Below, one piece after another: positions 13,623-22,450 of a DNA stretch of 44,233 nucleotides. The notes under the pieces are model-generated. The model searched no databases and was not told the DNA's origin. It saw only the letters and a list, made by a program, of their open reading frames with translations. Every line of letters starts with the position of its first letter. Positions within the stretch are counted from its first letter, which is position 1. Both the position numbers and the translations under genes were made by a program. The DNA is from Planctomycetota bacterium (GTDB taxonomy: Bacteria; Planctomycetota; Planctomycetia; Pirellulales; Pirellulaceae), in contig JAJDEH010000060.1 of NCBI GenBank assembly GCA_029259935.1, positions 1 through 44,233 on the forward strand, in the 5' to 3' direction.

Positions 13623-15175
13623 ACCGGCTGATACAACTAGCCTGCGGCGTTCTGATTCTTTGGAATGCAGCAAGCAACGCCGTTAGTTCCGCCGACGACG
13701 AGAACGACTACTACCGTCTCGTTTCGATCCTGGTGCCAAGAGCTGAAAGCGAGTCGCGGTCGAAGAACTGGAAGCCCGCGCCGAAAGGTCTGGCACTGGA
13801 AGTCAGCGGGATGACCGTGCTTGAGGATCGCCGCCTGGCGGTTGCCATACGCAAAGGCGAGGTGTGGATTCTCGACGGCGCGTACGACGATCCGCCGAAG
13901 AATGTCACTTACCATCGATTCGCGTCGGGGCTTCACGAGCCGCTCGGATTGCTTCGGCACAACGATTCGTTTTACACGGTTCAGCGTAGCGAACTGACCC
14001 GACTGCGCGATACCGATGGCGACGGTGTGGCCGACGAGTATCTGACGGTCGCTAAAGGCTGGGGCGTGACCGGGCACTATCATGAATATGCTTACGGACC
14101 GAAACTGGACCACGACGGAAACATGTGGCTTACGTTGAATATCGGCCTTGGGCTGAAGAAAGAACATCTGGGCCGCACGGTCCACGATCCGACGTTGGGC
14201 TTTCGCCAAGGACGCTGGCGTGGCTGGGGAATGAAAGTCACGCCCGAGGGCGAACTGATTCCCGTTTGTGCCGGCATGCGTTCGCCGAGCGGACTGGGTG
14301 CCAATCGCGCGGGCGACATGTTCTACACCGATCAGCAAGGCAACTGGGTCGGCACCAATACGCTGCATCACATGCGCGAGGGGGCCTTCTTTCATCATCC
14401 AGAGGCGCTCGCGTCGATGGGCCAACGCGGCTCGCCCATCCAGGGCATCAAAGAAATCCCCGGTGGGCTGCCCTTTCCTCAAGCGGTTCGGCGACTACCG
14501 CAACTAAAGCCGCCGGCCGTTTGGTTTCCGTACAAAAAGGTCGGCCAGTCGGCGACCGACATCATGCTCGACGACAGCGGCGGGAAGTTCGGCCCATTCG
14601 ACGGGCAACTGTTCGTCGGCGAGTTCACGCTATCCTCGATTCATCGCGTGTTTTTGGAGAAGATCGATGGCCAGTATCAAGGCGCATGCTTTCCGTTTCG
14701 CGAAGGTTTTGCGTCGGCGGTGCTCAGATTGTCTCAAGGGACCGACGGCAGCGCGTTTGTTGGTCTGAGCAATCGCGGTTGGAGCAGTCTCGGGTCGTCT
14801 TCGTATGGACTTCAGCGACTGCTGTGGACCGGCGCGACGCCTTTCGAAATCAAAGAGATGCGGGCCCGCCCCGATGGGTTTGAACTTGTCTTCACCAAGC
14901 CTGTTGATCCCCGAACGGCGACCAATTTAGAGTCCTACGCCATGACAAGCCACACCTACACGTATCACGCGACCTATGGGAGTGACGAGATTCAGAAGCG
15001 GACGCTGGATGTAGAAGCCGCCGAGGTCTCGGCTGACGGGAGAAGCGTGCGATTGAAAGTCAAAGGCTTACGTGAATTGTTCGTTCACGAATTGCTGGCC
15101 GCGGGCGTTCGCGACAGCGAAGGGCAACCGCTGCTGCACCCCAGCGCGTACTACACACTCAACCGGATTCCTTAA
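13613..15175 (+). CDS. Exported sugar-dehydrogenase-like beta-propeller protein
   Basis: The 520-residue protein has a signal peptide and a six-blade-type propeller of the soluble glucose/sorbosone dehydrogenase group, as found in planctomycete membrane-bound dehydrogenases. Supporting stretches are PLGLLRHNDSFYTVQRSELTRLRDTDGDGVADEY, followed by CAGMRSPSGLG, and VGEFTLSSIHRVF. It has no CxxCH, unlike many planctomycete homologues in which propeller and cytochrome are fused; here the cytochrome is the preceding separate gene. The ATG at 13613 overlaps that gene's stop by 10 bases. It is the last gene of the run starting near 7023. Its stop lies 17 bases inside the convergent desaturase gene. 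Confidence 0.8.
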   Translation: MEVNRLIQLACGVLILWNAASNAVSSADDENDYYRLVSILVPRAESESRSKNWKPAPKGLALEVSGMTVLEDRRLAVAIRKGEVWILDGAYDDPPKNVTYHRFASGLHEPLGLLRHNDSFYTVQRSELTRLRDTDGDGVADEYLTVAKGWGVTGHYHEYAYGPKLDHDGNMWLTLNIGLGLKKEHLGRTVHDPTLGFRQGRWRGWGMKVTPEGELIPVCAGMRSPSGLGANRAGDMFYTDQQGNWVGTNTLHHMREGAFFHHPEALASMGQRGSPIQGIKEIPGGLPFPQAVRRLPQLKPPAVWFPYKKVGQSATDIMLDDSGGKFGPFDGQLFVGEFTLSSIHRVFLEKIDGQYQGACFPFREGFASAVLRLSQGTDGSAFVGLSNRGWSSLGSSSYGLQRLLWTGATPFEIKEMRARPDGFELVFTKPVDPRTATNLESYAMTSHTYTYHATYGSDEIQKRTLDVEAAEVSADGRSVRLKVKGLRELFVHELLAAGVRDSEGQPLLHPSAYYTLNRIP

Positions 15176-16421
15176 CCGCCAGGTACTCTTCATTGGCCGT
15201 AGCCAGCTCTCGGTTGCGCATGTCTTCGTTATCGAATTCCTGTTCCATCGTCTCGCGACTGGCGAAGGCGAACAGCATTGCCAATCTGGAAAAGGATTTG
15301 GTGATGATTAGATCGTCGTAGAACTCAGGGGCAATCTTTCGAAGGTTTCCCAAACGGCTCCAGGGGATTCCCATGATGTCGTGGTGCTCGGTGTGCAGGC
15401 CGAAATTGAAGGTCAGCCAGTTGTACCAGCCATAGTATGAAGACGACGGCTGATATCGCTTGTGTCCATGGAAGTGGGAATTACTGAGGATCAACCCGAA
15501 ATTGACCGGATGCAAAAATCCCGTCGCGAAAAGCTGACTCAACAGCAAATAGACGACCGCCTGCCAGCCAACAAAGCAAAACAGGGCCACCCCCATGCCC
15601 AGGCTAAAAAGCGGGTAGATCACCGCCCAGCGTTTCGTTCCGTAGTGCTCGTATCCAGAGATAAGATGTTCGTCGGCCAAGATCGCCAGGGCGGTTGGTC
15701 CCGGATCGAGTCGTCCCCGCAACAGGGAACCGAAAAAGTAGACGATCAGCCCCAGCAGCGAACGGAACACCTGCATGACCAGCATGAACAGCGCAAAGGG
15801 CATGAAGACCGGTGAGAAAAAAGCACAACACAACTTGTAGAGAATTCCCCGCCGTACGAATCCTAGATAGACGTCTTGTCGGGTCAACAAAAAGAACGTC
15901 CTGCGCCGTGTAATAAAGTCCTTCCGCGCGCCCAGATCGTTGTGATGAACATGATGTTCGATCCACCACGTGTGATGCCCCGACATGAACATGGGCAACG
16001 ACGTGAACGTGAACAGCCAGCGGTTCCAAGATGTCTTTTTAAACACGAGGTTGTGATTACACTCGTGCGCCAACTGAAACAGATTCAAATTGAGCCACCC
16101 ACCCACGACGTATGCCACCAACAGCATGACCCACCACGGCGCGCCGCCGGCGACAACGGCCAGTCCCACTTGTAAGCCAGCGAGAAGCAAGCACCAAAAA
16201 GCGGTACTCGGCGTGTTGCCAAACAGCTCTTTGATTTCCGGATGCGCCCTAATCATGTTCTTGGCGCGATCCCGATGCCAAACGGCGTCCGGCTTCTGAT
16301 CGTCCGGTACTGAATCCGAGATGTCGACTTCAAATCCCGGAAAGACGGGGGCCGGCGTGCCCAGAATGCGGGGGTGAAAACCGACCTTCTTGTGGTCCGG
16401 GCTGTCCTTGGGAAATAGCAT
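15159..16421 (-). CDS. Membrane fatty acid desaturase, DES1-like (sphingolipid delta-4 desaturase family)
   Basis: The 420-residue integral membrane protein carries three histidine boxes: HECNH, HHVHH (in WWIEHHVHHNDLG) and HTEHH (in NFGLHTEHHD). The flanks agree with the eukaryotic dihydroceramide desaturase family (DES1): an N-terminal RAHPEIKELFG segment comparable to the family's KYPEIK, NLNLFQLAHE before box 1, SYYGWYNWLTFNFG before box 3, and IP..L..LRKIAPEFYDDL after it. Family members insert a delta-4 double bond in the ceramide long-chain base; whether this bacterium makes sphingolipids cannot be seen here. The C-terminal 40 residues are acidic and extra. GGAGG lies upstream of the ATG. 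It overlaps the convergent gene by 17 bases. Confidence 0.8.
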   Translation of the reverse strand: MLFPKDSPDHKKVGFHPRILGTPAPVFPGFEVDISDSVPDDQKPDAVWHRDRAKNMIRAHPEIKELFGNTPSTAFWCLLLAGLQVGLAVVAGGAPWWVMLLVAYVVGGWLNLNLFQLAHECNHNLVFKKTSWNRWLFTFTSLPMFMSGHHTWWIEHHVHHNDLGARKDFITRRRTFFLLTRQDVYLGFVRRGILYKLCCAFFSPVFMPFALFMLVMQVFRSLLGLIVYFFGSLLRGRLDPGPTALAILADEHLISGYEHYGTKRWAVIYPLFSLGMGVALFCFVGWQAVVYLLLSQLFATGFLHPVNFGLILSNSHFHGHKRYQPSSSYYGWYNWLTFNFGLHTEHHDIMGIPWSRLGNLRKIAPEFYDDLIITKSFSRLAMLFAFASRETMEQEFDNEDMRNRELATANEEYLAVKESG

Positions 16422-16598: not shown

Positions 16599-19500
16599 AT
16601 GAGCAACGAGCATCCTCTCAAAATGACCACTACGTCGAAGACCGGCTCGGCTCGCACCGCGATCGTGGCAATTCTGGCCTTGCTTATACTGTGTGGAATT
16701 GGTGCCGGCATCTTGATGAGCCAGGGAAATTCACCAAGCAGTTCCCCGGACCCATCGGCTAAATCAGCTAAGGAGCCGACTTCGCCAGCACCGGAGAATC
16801 CGTCTTTGTCTCAGGCGGACGATTCGAGTTCGCAGGCGAAGACCGCACAGGCCAGCACAACGAAGGACACTGAGGCTGGGTCTGACGATTGCGAAGTAGC
16901 GGTCAACGATTCGCTTTCCGGGCTGGAGGGCTTTACGGAGCGGGTGGACGGTCAACTGAAGAAAATCACGCGATTGCTCAAACACCCGGCCGACATTCGG
17001 GAGGAAGCTGTAAAGGACTTGGTTACCGATGCATTTCACTGCGGTGCGTTGCGTTCCGACTTGACTGAGGTCTTTCAGTCCAACCAACTCGTCGTTCAAC
17101 GGGCTACCAGTACCACGGACGTCGATGACCTACCCAATGCCGGCGCGAGCGGTCTTGCCGAATCGCTAAAACGTCTCGCTGAACCGTACCGGGACGCCAG
17201 CGACATTCACGTCAAATTCAAAACTGTCCGCGTCGAAGCCAAGGATGACACCGTCACTTCGCGAGCTTATTTTCATGCCAGCGGTCATTGCCAAGATCGG
17301 CTTGTGGAACAGACATCGACCTGGGACTTCCAATGGCAAGCCGCAACGGCCGATGAAGACCTGCGGCTGACCGAGATCAAGGTGGATGACTTCGAGGAGG
17401 TGTCTTACAACTCAGCGCATGAGGCACTTTACGGAGACGCGACGCTTGCGGTCATGGGCGATTCGCCCGCTTTTCAAAAGCAACTCATGTACGGCATTCA
17501 GCATTGGCGGAATCAAATTCAAGACCGAGTGCCGATCGATTTTCGTGGCCATCACGGCATTGCCGTGGGCGATGTGAACAACGACGGCTTGGAGGATTTT
17601 TATTTGTGCCAACCCAATGGCCTGCCCAATCTGCTGTATGTGCAGAACGAAGATGGCACCGTGCGCGACACGTCGGCCGAAGCGGGAGTCGATTGGCTGG
17701 ACGCCTCGAAAAGCGCGCTGCTGATCGATGTGGACAACGACGGTGATCAAGACCTTGTCGTCAGCGTTCAAGAGCGAGTCTTGGTGCTGTCCAATGACGG
17801 CCAGGGCCGATTCTCACTGATCGCCGAACTCGAAGGTCCTCGCCTGCCGCATTCCATGTCCGCGGCCGACTTTGACAACGACGGAGATTTGGACATTTAC
17901 GTCTGCGGGTTTTGGAAGTTCGACGACTATAAGCTCAACCCATTGCGAGCCGCCTTGTACGTGCCAACGCCCTGGCACGACGCGAACAACGGCGCCCCCA
18001 ATCACCTATTTCGCAACGACGGCAATTTCGAGTTCGCCGACGTCACCGAGCAGTCCGGCCTGGACGAAAACAACACACGTTTCAGCCACGCCGCTTCCTG
18101 GGAAGATTTTGATAACGACGGTGATCAAGATCTGTACGTCGCCAACGATTTTGGCCGGAACAGCTTTTACCGCAACGACGAAGGCCACTTCGTGGATATC
18201 GCTCCCGAATCCGGCGTCGAGGACATGGCGGCCGGCATGTCGGTTTCGTGGGCCGATTACGACCGTGACGGCTGGATGGATGTCTATGTCAGCAACATGT
18301 TTTCTTCGGCGGGCGGGCGAATCACCTACCATCGGAAGTTCCAAGACCGGTTAAGCGAAGAGGTGCGGGCCGGCTATCGCAGACACGCCCGTGGCAATAC
18401 GTTGTTCCAAAACTCGGCGGGCAAGGCGTTCAAAGATGTTAGCCAGCCGGCGGCGGTCGTGCTGGGCCGCTGGGCTTGGGCGTCGCATTTCATGGATATG
18501 AACAACGACGGCCTGGAGGACATTTTTGTCGCCAACGGTTATGTCACGAATGAAGACACCAACGATTTGTGAAGTCTCTATTGGCGACAGGTCGTGTCGC
18601 AATCGCCGGAGATGAAGGGCAGCTTGAATCGGGATTACTTGCAAGGATGGCAGCAGATCGCCCGTTTGATTCGGGACGAAGGGAAATCGCTCAGCGGTCG
18701 CGAAGCCCACTGCTGCTTTCTCAACACGGGCGGCGAGCAGTTCGCGCACGCCTCGTCAGTCACCGGATTGGATTACATCGACGACGGACGGGCCGCAGCT
18801 CTTGTCGATTGGGATTTGGACGGCGACTTGGATATCTGGACTACCAATCGCACCGGTCCCCGCGTGCGCTATCTACAGAATCAAGGCCAAGACCACGGCA
18901 ACTATCTGGCGGTACGACTGGTTGGCACCTCGTGCAATCGCGACGCGATCGGCGCGCGGCTTGAATTCGCACTCGCAGGCGACGAACGAAAGATCATCAA
19001 GACCGTGCATGCGGGCGCGGGCTTCCTGTCGCAATCCTCGAAATGGGTGCATGTGGGGCTGGGCGAGCGGGAATCGGTGCAAAGCCTAACCATTCGCTGG
19101 CCGGGCGGGACAACCGACGTGCATGCCAACTTGGCGGCCAATCAACGTTACCGAATTGTGCAAGGAGCGTCGTCGCCCGAGGCATGGTCCGCGCCTCGAG
19201 GCGGGATTGAACTTGCCTCCAAAGTGCTTCCATATCCGGAAGTGAGCGGCAAGTCGCGCGTGGTCATCGCCCCGCGCGCCGCGCTCGCGACGCTAGATGT
19301 GATTGACCTGGACGAACAGAGTATTCAACTTGAGGAGTTAGCGACCGGACCGATTCTGTTGAATCTATGGCAGACGACGTGCGTCCCTTGCTTGAAGGAA
19401 CTGCGTGAATTCACGGAACGCGCGCCCGAGCTGCGCGAAAGCGGCCTGCAAATCGTCGCACTGCACTTGACTAATCAAGGGACCAAGCCAACCGATTCCA

Positions 19501-19823
19501 TCGACGAAATCAAGGATTTTCTGACCCGCACGAAGTTCCCGTTCCCCGTCACGATTGCCGTGGGCGATAGCATCAAACAGCTTAGCACCATTCAGAAGCG
19601 TCTGTTGCAATCGCACCGGCGAATTGTGCTGCCCACCAGCCTGCTGCTGGATAGCGACCGGCAGGTGGCCGCGATCTACAAAGGAACGGTTAGCGTCGAA
19701 CAATTGCTTCACGACGTGAAGCTAACGTCGCTAGATGAGGAAGCGGTCAACCAAGCCAGCGTCCCCTTCCCCGGCCGCTGGTATTACTCGCCGATCGACG
19801 AGACCTATCACGAGAGTCGCTGA
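16599..19823 (+). CDS. Candidate selenoprotein: FG-GAP/ASPIC (CRTAC1-like) protein with thioredoxin-like domain, in-frame TGA (Sec) at 658
   Basis: One frame runs 16599-19823 (1074 residues) with a single internal TGA at 18570-18572. An N-terminal signal anchor (about 22-42) is followed by a low-complexity Ser/Ala/Lys linker, a helical region, and FG-GAP/VCBS-type repeats with calcium-loop motifs such as DVNNDGLEDF, DVDNDGDQDL, DFDNDGDLDI and DMNNDGLEDI. After the TGA the same fold continues (DWDLDGDLDI), then an ASPIC/UnbV domain (GARLEFALAG, RWPGGTTD), then a TlpA/redoxin-like domain with C-V-P-C in NLWQTTCVPCLKEL. No frameshift is needed. The TGA sits in NEDTNDL-U-SLYWRQVV. A SECIS-like hairpin follows. 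Alternatives are a nonsense mutation, a sequencing error, or two separate proteins. The ATG at 16599 is preferred over TTG 16584. Confidence 0.65.
18570..18600 (+). promoter_or_regulatory. In-frame TGA followed by a SECIS-like hairpin
   Basis: TGA is at 18570-18572. After 11 bases a perfect 6-bp stem GCGACA (18584-18589) pairs with TGTCGC (18595-18600) around the loop GGTCG. Two more T-A pairs (TT 18581-18582 with AA 18601-18602) extend it past a bulged G. The classical E. coli fdhF SECIS also begins 11 bases after the UGA and has an AGGUCU loop; here the corresponding bases are AGGTCG. A G in the first loop positions is required for SelB binding. The hairpin is directly visible and the function is inferred. 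Confidence 0.6.
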
Positions 19824-19890: not shown

Positions 19891-20730
19891 ATGCTGCAAC
19901 CCAACCCAAAAATCGTCTTGCTCGTTGTCGCTCATTTTGTCGGCTTGACCGTCTTGGCGTTTCTTTCCGAATCAGATCTGTCCGACTGGCGTGACCATGC
20001 CGCCTTCATTCTTTCGGCCAGCCAGTTTTCCTTGTTGACGATTTTCGTCGGATTTGGCCCCGAACCTCTGTCGCGACGAATCGGCTATGGTGTTGCGGGC
20101 CTGCTCTTGATTCTGGTCTTGTCCGCGCCGTTCAGTAGCGTGGCTTCCATGACTTGGAGCATTAACCGCGTGGCTCGATGCGTCGCCGGCTGCGCCGTCT
20201 TAAGCTTTGTTCGCTATCGCACGACGCGGATTGCTCATGAGTCGGCGGAAGGTACCGAGAACCTGGGAAGATTTCAATTTCGCCTGTGGCAGTTGCTGGC
20301 GACTGGGATGGCGACGACAGTGGTTGTGTGGGTCGGACAACGAGTGCATGGATTTTTCGACAGGCCCATGGAGTCCATTCTTGCGAGTCAATTCCTGTTC
20401 GTGGCCTCAAATCTGATATTCTTTGCGGTGGGATTGATCTACAGTTTGACAATTGCGTTCGTTTCGCTGTGGGCGACTCTGGCCGTGAAACGCCCCATCG
20501 TGCCCATTTTTTTCGCCATCGCCATCGCCTGCGCGATTAGCCCTCTGTGGCCGTTCCTGTCGCAGCAACGGGCCGATTCGTACACGATCCAAGCAATGGT
20601 CACGGGTTGCCAAACCGCGATTGTTATCGCTTCACTTCTGGTGGTTCGCCTCTGCGGCTACCGGATGGTCCGCGCGCATGATGACTCGAAAGACGATCCG
20701 AGCATCGTAAGTGATGTCCCGGTGCCCTAA
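19891..20730 (+). CDS. Multi-pass membrane protein of unknown function
   Basis: The 279-residue protein is predominantly hydrophobic, with about seven candidate transmembrane helices (for example residues 8-26, 35-54, 64-83, 89-107, 137-157, 170-200 and 205-222, 235-257). I do not recognise the family and see no catalytic motif. The C-terminus is a short acidic cytoplasmic-type tail (HDDSKDDPSI). It converges with the DUF1501 gene, and the two stops overlap by 4 bases (20727-20730). It follows the selenoprotein candidate by 67 bases on the same strand and could share its transcript. Confidence 0.65.
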   Translation: MLQPNPKIVLLVVAHFVGLTVLAFLSESDLSDWRDHAAFILSASQFSLLTIFVGFGPEPLSRRIGYGVAGLLLILVLSAPFSSVASMTWSINRVARCVAGCAVLSFVRYRTTRIAHESAEGTENLGRFQFRLWQLLATGMATTVVVWVGQRVHGFFDRPMESILASQFLFVASNLIFFAVGLIYSLTIAFVSLWATLAVKRPIVPIFFAIAIACAISPLWPFLSQQRADSYTIQAMVTGCQTAIVIASLLVVRLCGYRMVRAHDDSKDDPSIVSDVPVP

Positions 20731-22115
20731 CCAAAGATGCCGTCGATCACTTGCCCGTCAGCAATCGGAGTCGGCCGCGGCAGACGCGGGAAGTAGGTGC
20801 GATGGTGGTCGATACCCAGCGCGCGGTAGATCGTCGCCGCGAAGTCTTCGGGCCTGCAGGGTCGAGTACTCGGTTCCGCGCCGTTGCGGTCGGTAGCGCC
20901 AATCACCGCTCCGCCCGCGATCCCCGCTCCCGCCAGCAACACGCTACCGGCATTGGGATAATGGTCACGGCCCGCGGTCTTATTGATTTTGGGCGTCCGT
21001 CCGAACTCGCCCATGGCCACGACCAGCGTGGTATCGAGCAGCCCGCGATCCTCCAAATCGTCAAGCAGCGCCGACAGCGACATATCGAGTTGGGGCAAGT
21101 TGCCGGGCCCCTTATAAGAATGCCAGGTGCTTGAGGCAGGAACCGCACTCGGCCGTTGTGCGAACGACATCATCGAATCGAACAGCCAGCCATGGTTGTC
21201 CCACGTTCCATTCGTCGTGCCGTTTCCGAACAGCCCGCCTTGCACGGCCTGATTGATGGTCACGAAGCGAGCGCCCGCTTCGACCAGCCGCCGCCCGAGC
21301 AACACGCGTTGGCCGTAGATGTTGGCACCGTATTTCTCTCGCAATGCGGTCGGCTCTTCGTCCAAGTTCATGGCCTGCTTCATCGCGCCGCTGGTCAGCA
21401 TGGCGATCGCTTCCTCGGCGAATTTATCGCTGGCCTCGAGCCCCGAGTCCTCGACCGACGCCAGCCGGCTCAGATTTTCCAATTGTTGCAGCATCGAACG
21501 GCGATCTTCAAAACGCACTTTCGACAAGTTCAGGCCACCGACTTTGATTTGTGGATTGGCCGGATCGCCGCCGATATTAAACGCATCGTGGGCCGACCCC
21601 AAAAAGCCGGGGGGATCGGTATAGCGCACCGCCACCGGCAGGCCAAAATGAGGCGGAACTCCCTTCACGCGGCTCCCGTACAGGGCGGAAATCAGGCAGC
21701 CAAAGTTGGGGAAATACTGGCCCGCGGGCGGCGAGTTGAAGCCACTGGCGACGTGCTGCGATCCCGTGGAGTGCGAGCCGCTTTTCCCTTGCCACGACCG
21801 TACAATGGCCACCTTGTCCATCCGCTGGGCCATCAACGGCATCTTTTCGCAAATCAACGTTCCGGGCACATTCGTTTGTGTCGGCTTCCACGGTCCACGA
21901 ACCTCGACCGGAGCATCCGGCTTGGGATCAAAGGTCTCAAAGTGGCTGGGTCCGCCCGCCAGAAAAATGAAGATGCACGACAAGTCGCGCTGCGGCCGGC
22001 TGTTCTCCGCGGCCTGCAGGAACTGAGGCAGATTCAATCCGAACAGTCCGACGCCAATTTGCAACGCCTGGCGACGACCGAGGCGGAAAGTTTCTCTAGA
22101 TTCGCGACACGGCAT
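20727..22115 (-). CDS. Tat-exported DUF1501 protein (sulfatase-like alkaline phosphatase fold)
   Basis: The 462-residue protein starts at the ATG at 22115, preceded by GGAG at seven bases; an upstream in-frame extension to 22214 lacks support. A twin-arginine signal (R14-R15 in GRRQALQIGVGLFG) leads into the DUF1501 domain: CIFIFLAGGPSHFETFDPKPDAP, then EKMPLMAQRMDKVAIVRSW, VTINQAVQGG, WDNHGW, VVAMGEFGRTPKI and GRDHYPNAGSVLLAGAGI. The family is related to the alkaline phosphatase/sulfatase superfamily, but its activity is undetermined. Here it is an orphan, without the DUF1549/DUF1553 partner gene usually beside such genes. It is transcribed toward the membrane protein gene. Confidence 0.85.
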   Translation of the reverse strand: MPCRESRETFRLGRRQALQIGVGLFGLNLPQFLQAAENSRPQRDLSCIFIFLAGGPSHFETFDPKPDAPVEVRGPWKPTQTNVPGTLICEKMPLMAQRMDKVAIVRSWQGKSGSHSTGSQHVASGFNSPPAGQYFPNFGCLISALYGSRVKGVPPHFGLPVAVRYTDPPGFLGSAHDAFNIGGDPANPQIKVGGLNLSKVRFEDRRSMLQQLENLSRLASVEDSGLEASDKFAEEAIAMLTSGAMKQAMNLDEEPTALREKYGANIYGQRVLLGRRLVEAGARFVTINQAVQGGLFGNGTTNGTWDNHGWLFDSMMSFAQRPSAVPASSTWHSYKGPGNLPQLDMSLSALLDDLEDRGLLDTTLVVAMGEFGRTPKINKTAGRDHYPNAGSVLLAGAGIAGGAVIGATDRNGAEPSTRPCRPEDFAATIYRALGIDHHRTYFPRLPRPTPIADGQVIDGIFG

Positions 22116-22351
22116 GACAAATCTCCAACGGACGCACATCAACAGTTCGCAACCCCGAGTATATCGGAATCGGTTGATGAATGAAAATCTCGCCGTGTAC
22201 CGGCCCCACGTCAAGCTGAATCGACTCGATCCGCTACAAATTGGTGGAAACAGACCGAATTTGAATCCAGACCGAAGGTCTTCTGCCCACGCCCCTGAGA
22301 TGTTAAAATCGAACTTTTGCCAAGCGAAACTTCATTTCGCAACCGATCCGA

Positions 22352-22435
<84 letters not shown>

Positions 22436-22450
22436 CTCGCTTCTGCTGTA

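Follow-up and report, generated by a model that had tools for sequence, protein, structure and literature searches.

Does an in-frame UGA in a planctomycete gene encode selenocysteine (Sec)? The question is raised by a stretch of 44,233 nucleotides (contig JAJDEH010000060.1 of assembly GCA_029259935.1, from a Planctomycetota bacterium; hereafter the window), in which the frame at 16599-19823 holds a single internal stop, a TGA at 18570-18572 corresponding to residue 658 of 1074. An earlier note made from the sequence alone had described this frame and put its product forward as a candidate selenoprotein. Translation reproduced the frame, and the interpretation gained support from the TGA or Cys codon found at the site in relatives, from a conserved, covarying hairpin and from the enrichment of SelA in planctomycetes that carry the motif. 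Comparative sequence evidence leads us to conclude that the UGA very probably (about 95%) codes for selenocysteine and that the gene belongs to a new bacterial selenoprotein family. The computed support comprises the conservation of the UGA, its replacement by Cys, selection on the hairpin, a link to the Sec machinery, the fold of the product and the co-occurrence of redox sites.

Conservation of the in-frame UGA

A protein search with residues 560-760 returned 1119 relatives, the best 120 of which were listed (the window's own protein included). A contig scan with the single window protein as query found no relative; an alignment-based scan did, and the best 80 of its 556 confirmed loci were used, from Planctomycetota, Verrucomicrobiota, Acidobacteriota and a few others. 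Aligning the homologues, the check that the earlier note had proposed, placed TGA opposite 18570-18572 in 79 of the 80 loci and TGC (Cys) in one, L007; TAA and TAG never occurred. Together with the window, these 79 loci make up the 80 TGA genes, or Sec proteins, referred to below. The conserved UGA lies in a frame that is conserved on both sides and that remains open for a further 224-845 codons in every one of the 80 loci, three of which run into a contig end. Among 74 complete proteins, namely the window's and those of 73 loci once 7 open-ended loci were dropped, R731, D737 and W834 were kept in every case and the CxxC of the C-terminal redoxin domain in 73. The Ser codon 3' of the TGA (18573-18575, + strand) was AGY in 80/80 TGA genes, as compared with 2409 of the 7349 other Ser codons of these genes; the single exception at this Ser is a Thr in L125, outside the main set. 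All 20 retrieved sites of a DNA motif covering TGA and hairpin lay within homologues of the window gene, with the TGA at the aligned place.

The UGA could be a true stop, giving a functional product of 657 residues, with the sequence downstream being either a relic or a gene of its own. Many of the proteins in databases do end at this point: 78 of the 119 listed homologues (79 of 120 with the window's own) stop at the Sec site, their ends carrying a motif NG...DL, and a GTG at 18594 could open a frame of 409 residues. Such a stop is at odds, however, with the continuation of the same frame in every locus and with the conservation of residues downstream, and on these grounds a separate downstream gene was rejected. 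Moreover, sense-codon relatives have one continuous frame, the stop codon at the site was TGA in 79 of 79 cases and never TAA or TAG, and only one of 8 sense-codon homologues, L117, has the full hairpin described below (as does the Cys gene L007). According to the structure model, a stop would also delete the last strands of the propeller (model 611-667). We consider a true stop very improbable; on the selenocysteine reading, many family members are filed in databases as truncated proteins.

Read-through as such is implied by the open frame past the UGA, and selenium might play no part in it: a near-cognate tRNA (for Trp, Arg or Cys) or a changed code would then supply an ordinary amino acid. 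Yet TGA terminates 26 of the 77 closed frames of the loci, as well as the window gene, which shows that it is still a stop codon in these loci; a changed genetic code was rejected. Trp occupies the site in none of the 41 listed sense homologues, the top three of which have Cys, and both the SelA link and the covarying hairpin with its apical GU (see below) also speak against ordinary decoding, to which we give very little credence.

The window itself is one record without reads, and an error of sequencing or assembly at 18570-18572 might be suspected. The same TGA recurs, however, in 79 of the 80 other loci and at 11/11 motif sites of the planctomycete draft genome G002. For the family this recurrence refutes an error, and for the window we find one scarcely credible.

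The SECIS-like hairpin and the selenium machinery

The TGA of the window is followed by a hairpin that resembles a selenocysteine insertion sequence (SECIS); its arms are those that the earlier note had described, as is the spacing, the first arm beginning 11 nt after the TGA (Table 1). The complete 6-bp helix was present in 73 of the 80 TGA genes, against 3.3 +/- 1.7 (maximum 9) in 1000 synonymous shuffles drawn with each gene's own codon usage, and 473 of 480 pairs were kept against 293 +/- 9, again in 1000 shuffles. The covariation score reached 0.156, as compared with 0.094 in shuffles, none of which (0/500) scored as high; two pairs were altered on both sides, a number of compensatory changes attained by 13 of 500 shuffles. 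When the pairing partners were slid along the sequence, pairing fell from 98% to 12-67%. In 93 distinct TGA sites, some of them retrieved by a motif that fixes other hairpin columns, pair 18-28 was GU in 41, AU in 37, GC in 6, CG in 6, UG in 1 and unpaired in 2, and pair 20-26 was AU in 82, GC in 9, GU in 1 and unpaired in 1. A loop GU occupied the same position in 79 of the 80 genes.

For comparison with sense-codon genes, 119 Acidobacteriota genomes were searched with P0027, a homologue of Gln type. Of the six pairs, 2, 3, 3, 4, 2, 2, 6 and 3 remain in eight sense-codon homologues, which have a similar peptide, whereas each of the eight TGA homologues that this search also gave (two in genomes of the main set) has all six. 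Judged from these alignments, the hairpin directly after the UGA is under selection as RNA.

The Sec machinery was sought in 38 relatives' genomes, reached from 40 of the 80 loci (37 with a TGA locus and one, G006, with the TGC locus), and in 14 control genomes. SelB exceeded its cut-off in 31 of 38 relatives' genomes versus 2 of 14 controls and SelA in 32 versus 1, and at least one of SelA, SelB and the selenocysteine tRNA (tRNA-Sec) did so in 35 of the 38. In a set of 294 Planctomycetota genomes, which includes its centre G002 (the phylum of each set is that of its centre locus), the TGA-hairpin motif was found in 37 genomes, at 66 sites, and the reversed motif gave none. SelA (E <= 1e-70) was present in 172 of the 294: it was matched in 36 of the 37 motif-positive genomes as opposed to 136 of the 257 others (Fisher p = 1.6e-8, with genomes matched by eye), and G303, the motif-positive genome without a SelA match, has a tRNA-Sec at 75 bits. 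In a small sample of Acidobacteriota, SelA was present in 7/7 TGA genomes versus 3/7 sense-codon genomes and tRNA-Sec (E <= 1e-9) in 6/7 versus 3/7. We propose that the hairpin would act in the mRNA as the SECIS, 11 nt downstream of the UGA, and that SelB with Sec-tRNA would decode this codon as selenocysteine.

Sense-codon homologues, fold and redox sites

The top-scoring full-length database homologues, P0002-P0004, have Cys at the site, in a ranking slightly biased towards Cys homologues by a query that carried C in place of Sec. Cys at the Sec position was found in P0002, P0003, P0004, P0013, P0022 and L007 (TGC), P0002 and L007 being the same protein (distance 0).

Several results weigh against selenocysteine and have to be set beside this evidence. 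The window hairpin by itself has an unremarkable free energy (z = -0.30; shuffled sequences fold equally well or better in 77 of 200 cases), and the claim for a hairpin must consequently rest on the relatives; the earlier view that the arrangement is unlikely by chance fails for the window alone and holds across relatives (73/80 helices, mean of shuffles 3.3). All six pairs are also present in two sequences without TGA, the Asp homologue L117 and the Cys gene L007. The retention of the full hairpin beside the TGC of L007 (7756-7758) matches what a recent Sec-to-Cys change would leave, and it is likely a fossil of such a change; L117 perhaps reflects a recent loss of Sec. In three of the 38 relatives' genomes (G012, G017 and G020, draft metagenome assemblies), SelA, SelB and tRNA-Sec are all below cut-off. 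tRNA-Sec exceeded its cut-off in 34 of the 38, and since 5 of 14 controls pass it too, matches near 47-53 bits are insecure. SelA presence alone is weak evidence as well, because 53% of the motif-negative planctomycetes have it. Positions 703-707, where a partner for Sec658 is suspected, hold no Cys in six of the 80 Sec proteins. Finally, the 41 longer homologues among those listed (two or three of them fragments) have Cys in 5 cases and E, S, Q, G, A, N, H, R or D in the other 36.

The earlier note had counted non-Cys sense homologues as evidence against selenocysteine. They do occur, as 36 of the 41 longer ones; most of them, however, have no redox sites, 30 of the 36 being without the redoxin CxxC and 27 without the nearby Cys. 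For this reason we read them, from their aligned sequences, as probable paralogues without a redox site and not as evidence against Sec.

What kind of protein would contain this residue? Pfam matched FG-GAP_3 in four stretches, UnbV_ASPIC at 783-851, AhpC-TSA at 900-1025 and Redoxin at 901-1032, so that the order of domains given in the earlier note (propeller, ASPIC/UnbV, CxxC redoxin) was recovered. In the AlphaFold2 model (mean pLDDT 91.6), structure matches to the propeller cover approximately model residues 181-668, and Sec lies where a short helix begins, late in the propeller. An FG-GAP propeller followed by ASPIC/UnbV, seen with Pfam and in structure matches, is the CRTAC1-like layout, and the C-terminal part has a redoxin fold with a CxxC; the predicted fold of the window protein is CRTAC1-like with an added ResA-like redoxin. 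The curated NCBIfam cut-offs were not reached by the redoxin domain (ResA 50.7 bits against 170, TlpA 31.7 against 230). Of the 76 homologues whose start is closed, 23 have a lipobox-like motif. The product would be a protein of 1074 residues with an export or anchor segment, an FG-GAP propeller, ASPIC and a C-terminal ResA/TlpA-like redoxin (Table 1).

Table 1. Features of the selenoprotein candidate and their positions in the window.
Feature	Position	Strand	Basis or detail
Putative selenoprotein coding frame	16599..19820	+	1074 residues, Sec at 658, terminator TGA 19821-19823
Probable N-terminal hydrophobic anchor/export signal, ~residues 20-41	16656..16721	+	Translation inspected by eye
FG-GAP beta-propeller, ~residues 275-762, encloses Sec	17421..18884	+	Pfam FG-GAP_3 x4, AlphaFold2 model
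TGA very probably read as Sec (U658), motif DL-U-S-x-x-W-R-Q-V	18570..18572	+	Aligned loci, conserved downstream frame
SECIS-like hairpin	18584..18600	+	Arms GCGACA 18584-18589 and TGTCGC 18595-18600; loop GGTCG (GGUCG) 18590-18594
Cys705-Cys706, candidate partner of Sec658	18711..18716	+	Cys co-occurrence in aligned homologues
ASPIC/UnbV domain, residues 783-851	18945..19151	+	Pfam PF07593 (UnbV_ASPIC), 64.4 bits
ResA/TlpA-like redoxin domain, ~residues 886-1044	19254..19730	+	
Redoxin CxxC (C928, C931)	19380..19391	+	Conserved in Sec proteins

The redox sites were compared in the Sec proteins and in 42 aligned sense homologues (the 41 listed proteins and L007). A Cys at aligned positions 703-707 was present in 74/80 Sec proteins, 4/6 Cys proteins and 9/36 non-Cys sense homologues, and the redoxin CxxC in 78/80, 4/6 and 6/36, counts that include shared ancestry and in which P0002 and L007, one protein, enter the six Cys proteins twice. 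CxxC is missing from two Sec proteins: the frame of L039 stops before the redoxin, and L078 is cut by a contig end. In L039 (446-4600) the frame runs for 224 codons past the TGA; 7 bases beyond its end a redoxin-type frame begins, which points to a split gene or a frameshift. These alignments suggest that Sec or Cys at 658, Cys at 703-707 and the CxxC tend to be gained and lost together, as would be expected of a shared redox function, with a contribution of ancestry. Parsimony on a tree built from 122 segments needs 10 steps to account for U, C and the other residues at the site; the rooting is uncertain, and no ancestral state was drawn.

Co-occurrence of the three redox sites suggests a selenol/thiol relay from Sec658 to Cys705/706 and on to the redoxin CxxC, which we put at even odds. 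The protein would be an extracytoplasmic thiol oxidoreductase in which Sec658 provides the attacking selenol and Cys705/706 acts as the resolving partner; its own redoxin domain, with the CxxC, would then restore the reduced state of this site. The insertion of Sec, export, the relay and the existence of a substrate for it are the parts of this proposal that we infer. A Sec that is inserted could also have a structural or a metal- or cofactor-binding role in the propeller and take no part in a thiol relay with the redoxin. It lies outside the thioredoxin fold, in a motif that is not UxxC, and the six Sec proteins without Cys at 703-707 agree with such a role; the joint presence of the three sites (Cys at 703-707 and CxxC in 74 and 78 of 80, 4 and 4 of 6, 9 and 6 of 36), even with shared ancestry included in the counts, argues against it. 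We regard such a role as rather unlikely.

Family size, gene neighbourhood and known systems

G002 carries 11 motif sites (L132-L142), all in homologous frames with the TGA at the same place. These paralogues share 35-47% identity with one another, and 10 of 11 have W-x3-CxxC. The other motif-positive Planctomycetota of the 294-genome set have 1-4 sites each. Among 193 Verrucomicrobiota genomes, the DNA motif was found in one, G021, the centre of that set; the family, or at least its DNA motif, is rare in Verrucomicrobiota as sampled, though many of the 80 loci are verrucomicrobial. Counts of how much these bacteria use selenium are probably too low, given the 11 diverged copies in a single planctomycete genome.

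Gene neighbourhoods were surveyed at the 80 loci and in the window between 10000 and 27000 (n=81). FG-GAP/ASPIC-type genes cluster with the selenoprotein gene at 15 of the 81, within a few kb and sometimes at less than 100 bases; examples are L037 (7928-10033, the one member checked with Pfam), L065, L036, L042 and L064. A second copy of the TGA motif is present at four loci (L002, L048, L068 and L069), redoxin-type frames lie near the selenoprotein gene at 12 of 81, and DUF1501-type genes are nearby at 9 of 81, including the window (20727-22214, - strand). No conserved operon that points to a substrate was seen across the 81 neighbourhoods. Directly upstream in the window lies a fatty acid desaturase gene (15159-16421, - strand) with a weak match to sphingolipid delta-4 desaturase; after the selenoprotein gene, 19891-20730 (+ strand) encodes a hydrophobic-looking protein of 279 residues with no Pfam match. 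Scanning the window against Rfam and for tRNAs gave one RNA gene, a tRNA-Leu (CAA) at 22352-22436 (+ strand). In some bacteria CRTAC1-type genes adjoin homologues of hydrazine synthase, according to the text of PMC12758564, which offers a possible lead.

The earlier note knew of no established ASPIC/UnbV selenoprotein. A literature search judged on titles and abstracts likewise gave no FG-GAP, UnbV, CRTAC1 or VCBS selenoprotein, although Haft and Tolstoy 2025 could describe one. PMC13188914, an inventory from 2026, puts its own count of selenoprotein families at 119; no FG-GAP, ASPIC, CRTAC1 or beta-propeller family appears in its Table 1, and a word search of the text gave none of these terms. 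FG-GAP is absent from the text, which excludes the supplementary lists, of PMC4807772 (on planctomycete selenoproteins), PMC2398784, PMC5029168 and PMC12013277, and in NCBIfam 20 no model above its cut-off fits the window protein. GOS_A is a hypothetical selenoprotein with two reported members in the text of PMC2398784; the present family appears to be new and populous.

All together, these results hint at a family of selenoenzymes, large, unrecognised and of an exported type, whose Sec, set within a CRTAC1-type beta-propeller, would be kept reduced by the fused redoxin, a view that we hold tentatively, at somewhat less than even odds. If it is true, these proteins would be a main use of selenium in planctomycetes with 11 copies (one genome) or 2-4 copies (several), and CRTAC1-type propellers can be catalytic. 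The family would also give a first handle on the function of bacterial FG-GAP/ASPIC (CRTAC1-like) proteins, some of which may be redox enzymes.

In bacterial SECIS (bSECIS) elements of the Escherichia coli FdhF type, a hairpin with GU in its apical loop begins 11 nt after the in-frame UGA. The window gene has the in-frame UGA, the 11-nt spacing and the apical GU in common with selenoproteins of this type. With the ResA/TlpA thiol-disulfide oxidoreductases its product shares a CxxC domain at the C-terminus; unlike them, the redoxin scores below the NCBIfam cut-offs and is fused to a propeller, and the Sec lies outside it. We know of no selenocysteine in CRTAC1. Compared with CRTAC1 (cartilage acidic protein 1; mouse PDB 9etn) and the bacterial FG-GAP/ASPIC 'CRTAC1 family', the window protein adds a Sec late in the propeller and a C-terminal redoxin. 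A redoxin-type fold is likewise common to the window protein and to the UGC-containing TlpA and 'Redoxin family' selenoproteins, as these are listed in PMC13188914. In those proteins, by the same listing, the Sec motif (UGC, UxxC) lies in the redoxin-type domain, whereas the redoxin of the window protein has CxxC and its Sec would be placed in a beta-propeller, unlike the thioredoxin-like fold that the inventory calls usual for selenoproteins.

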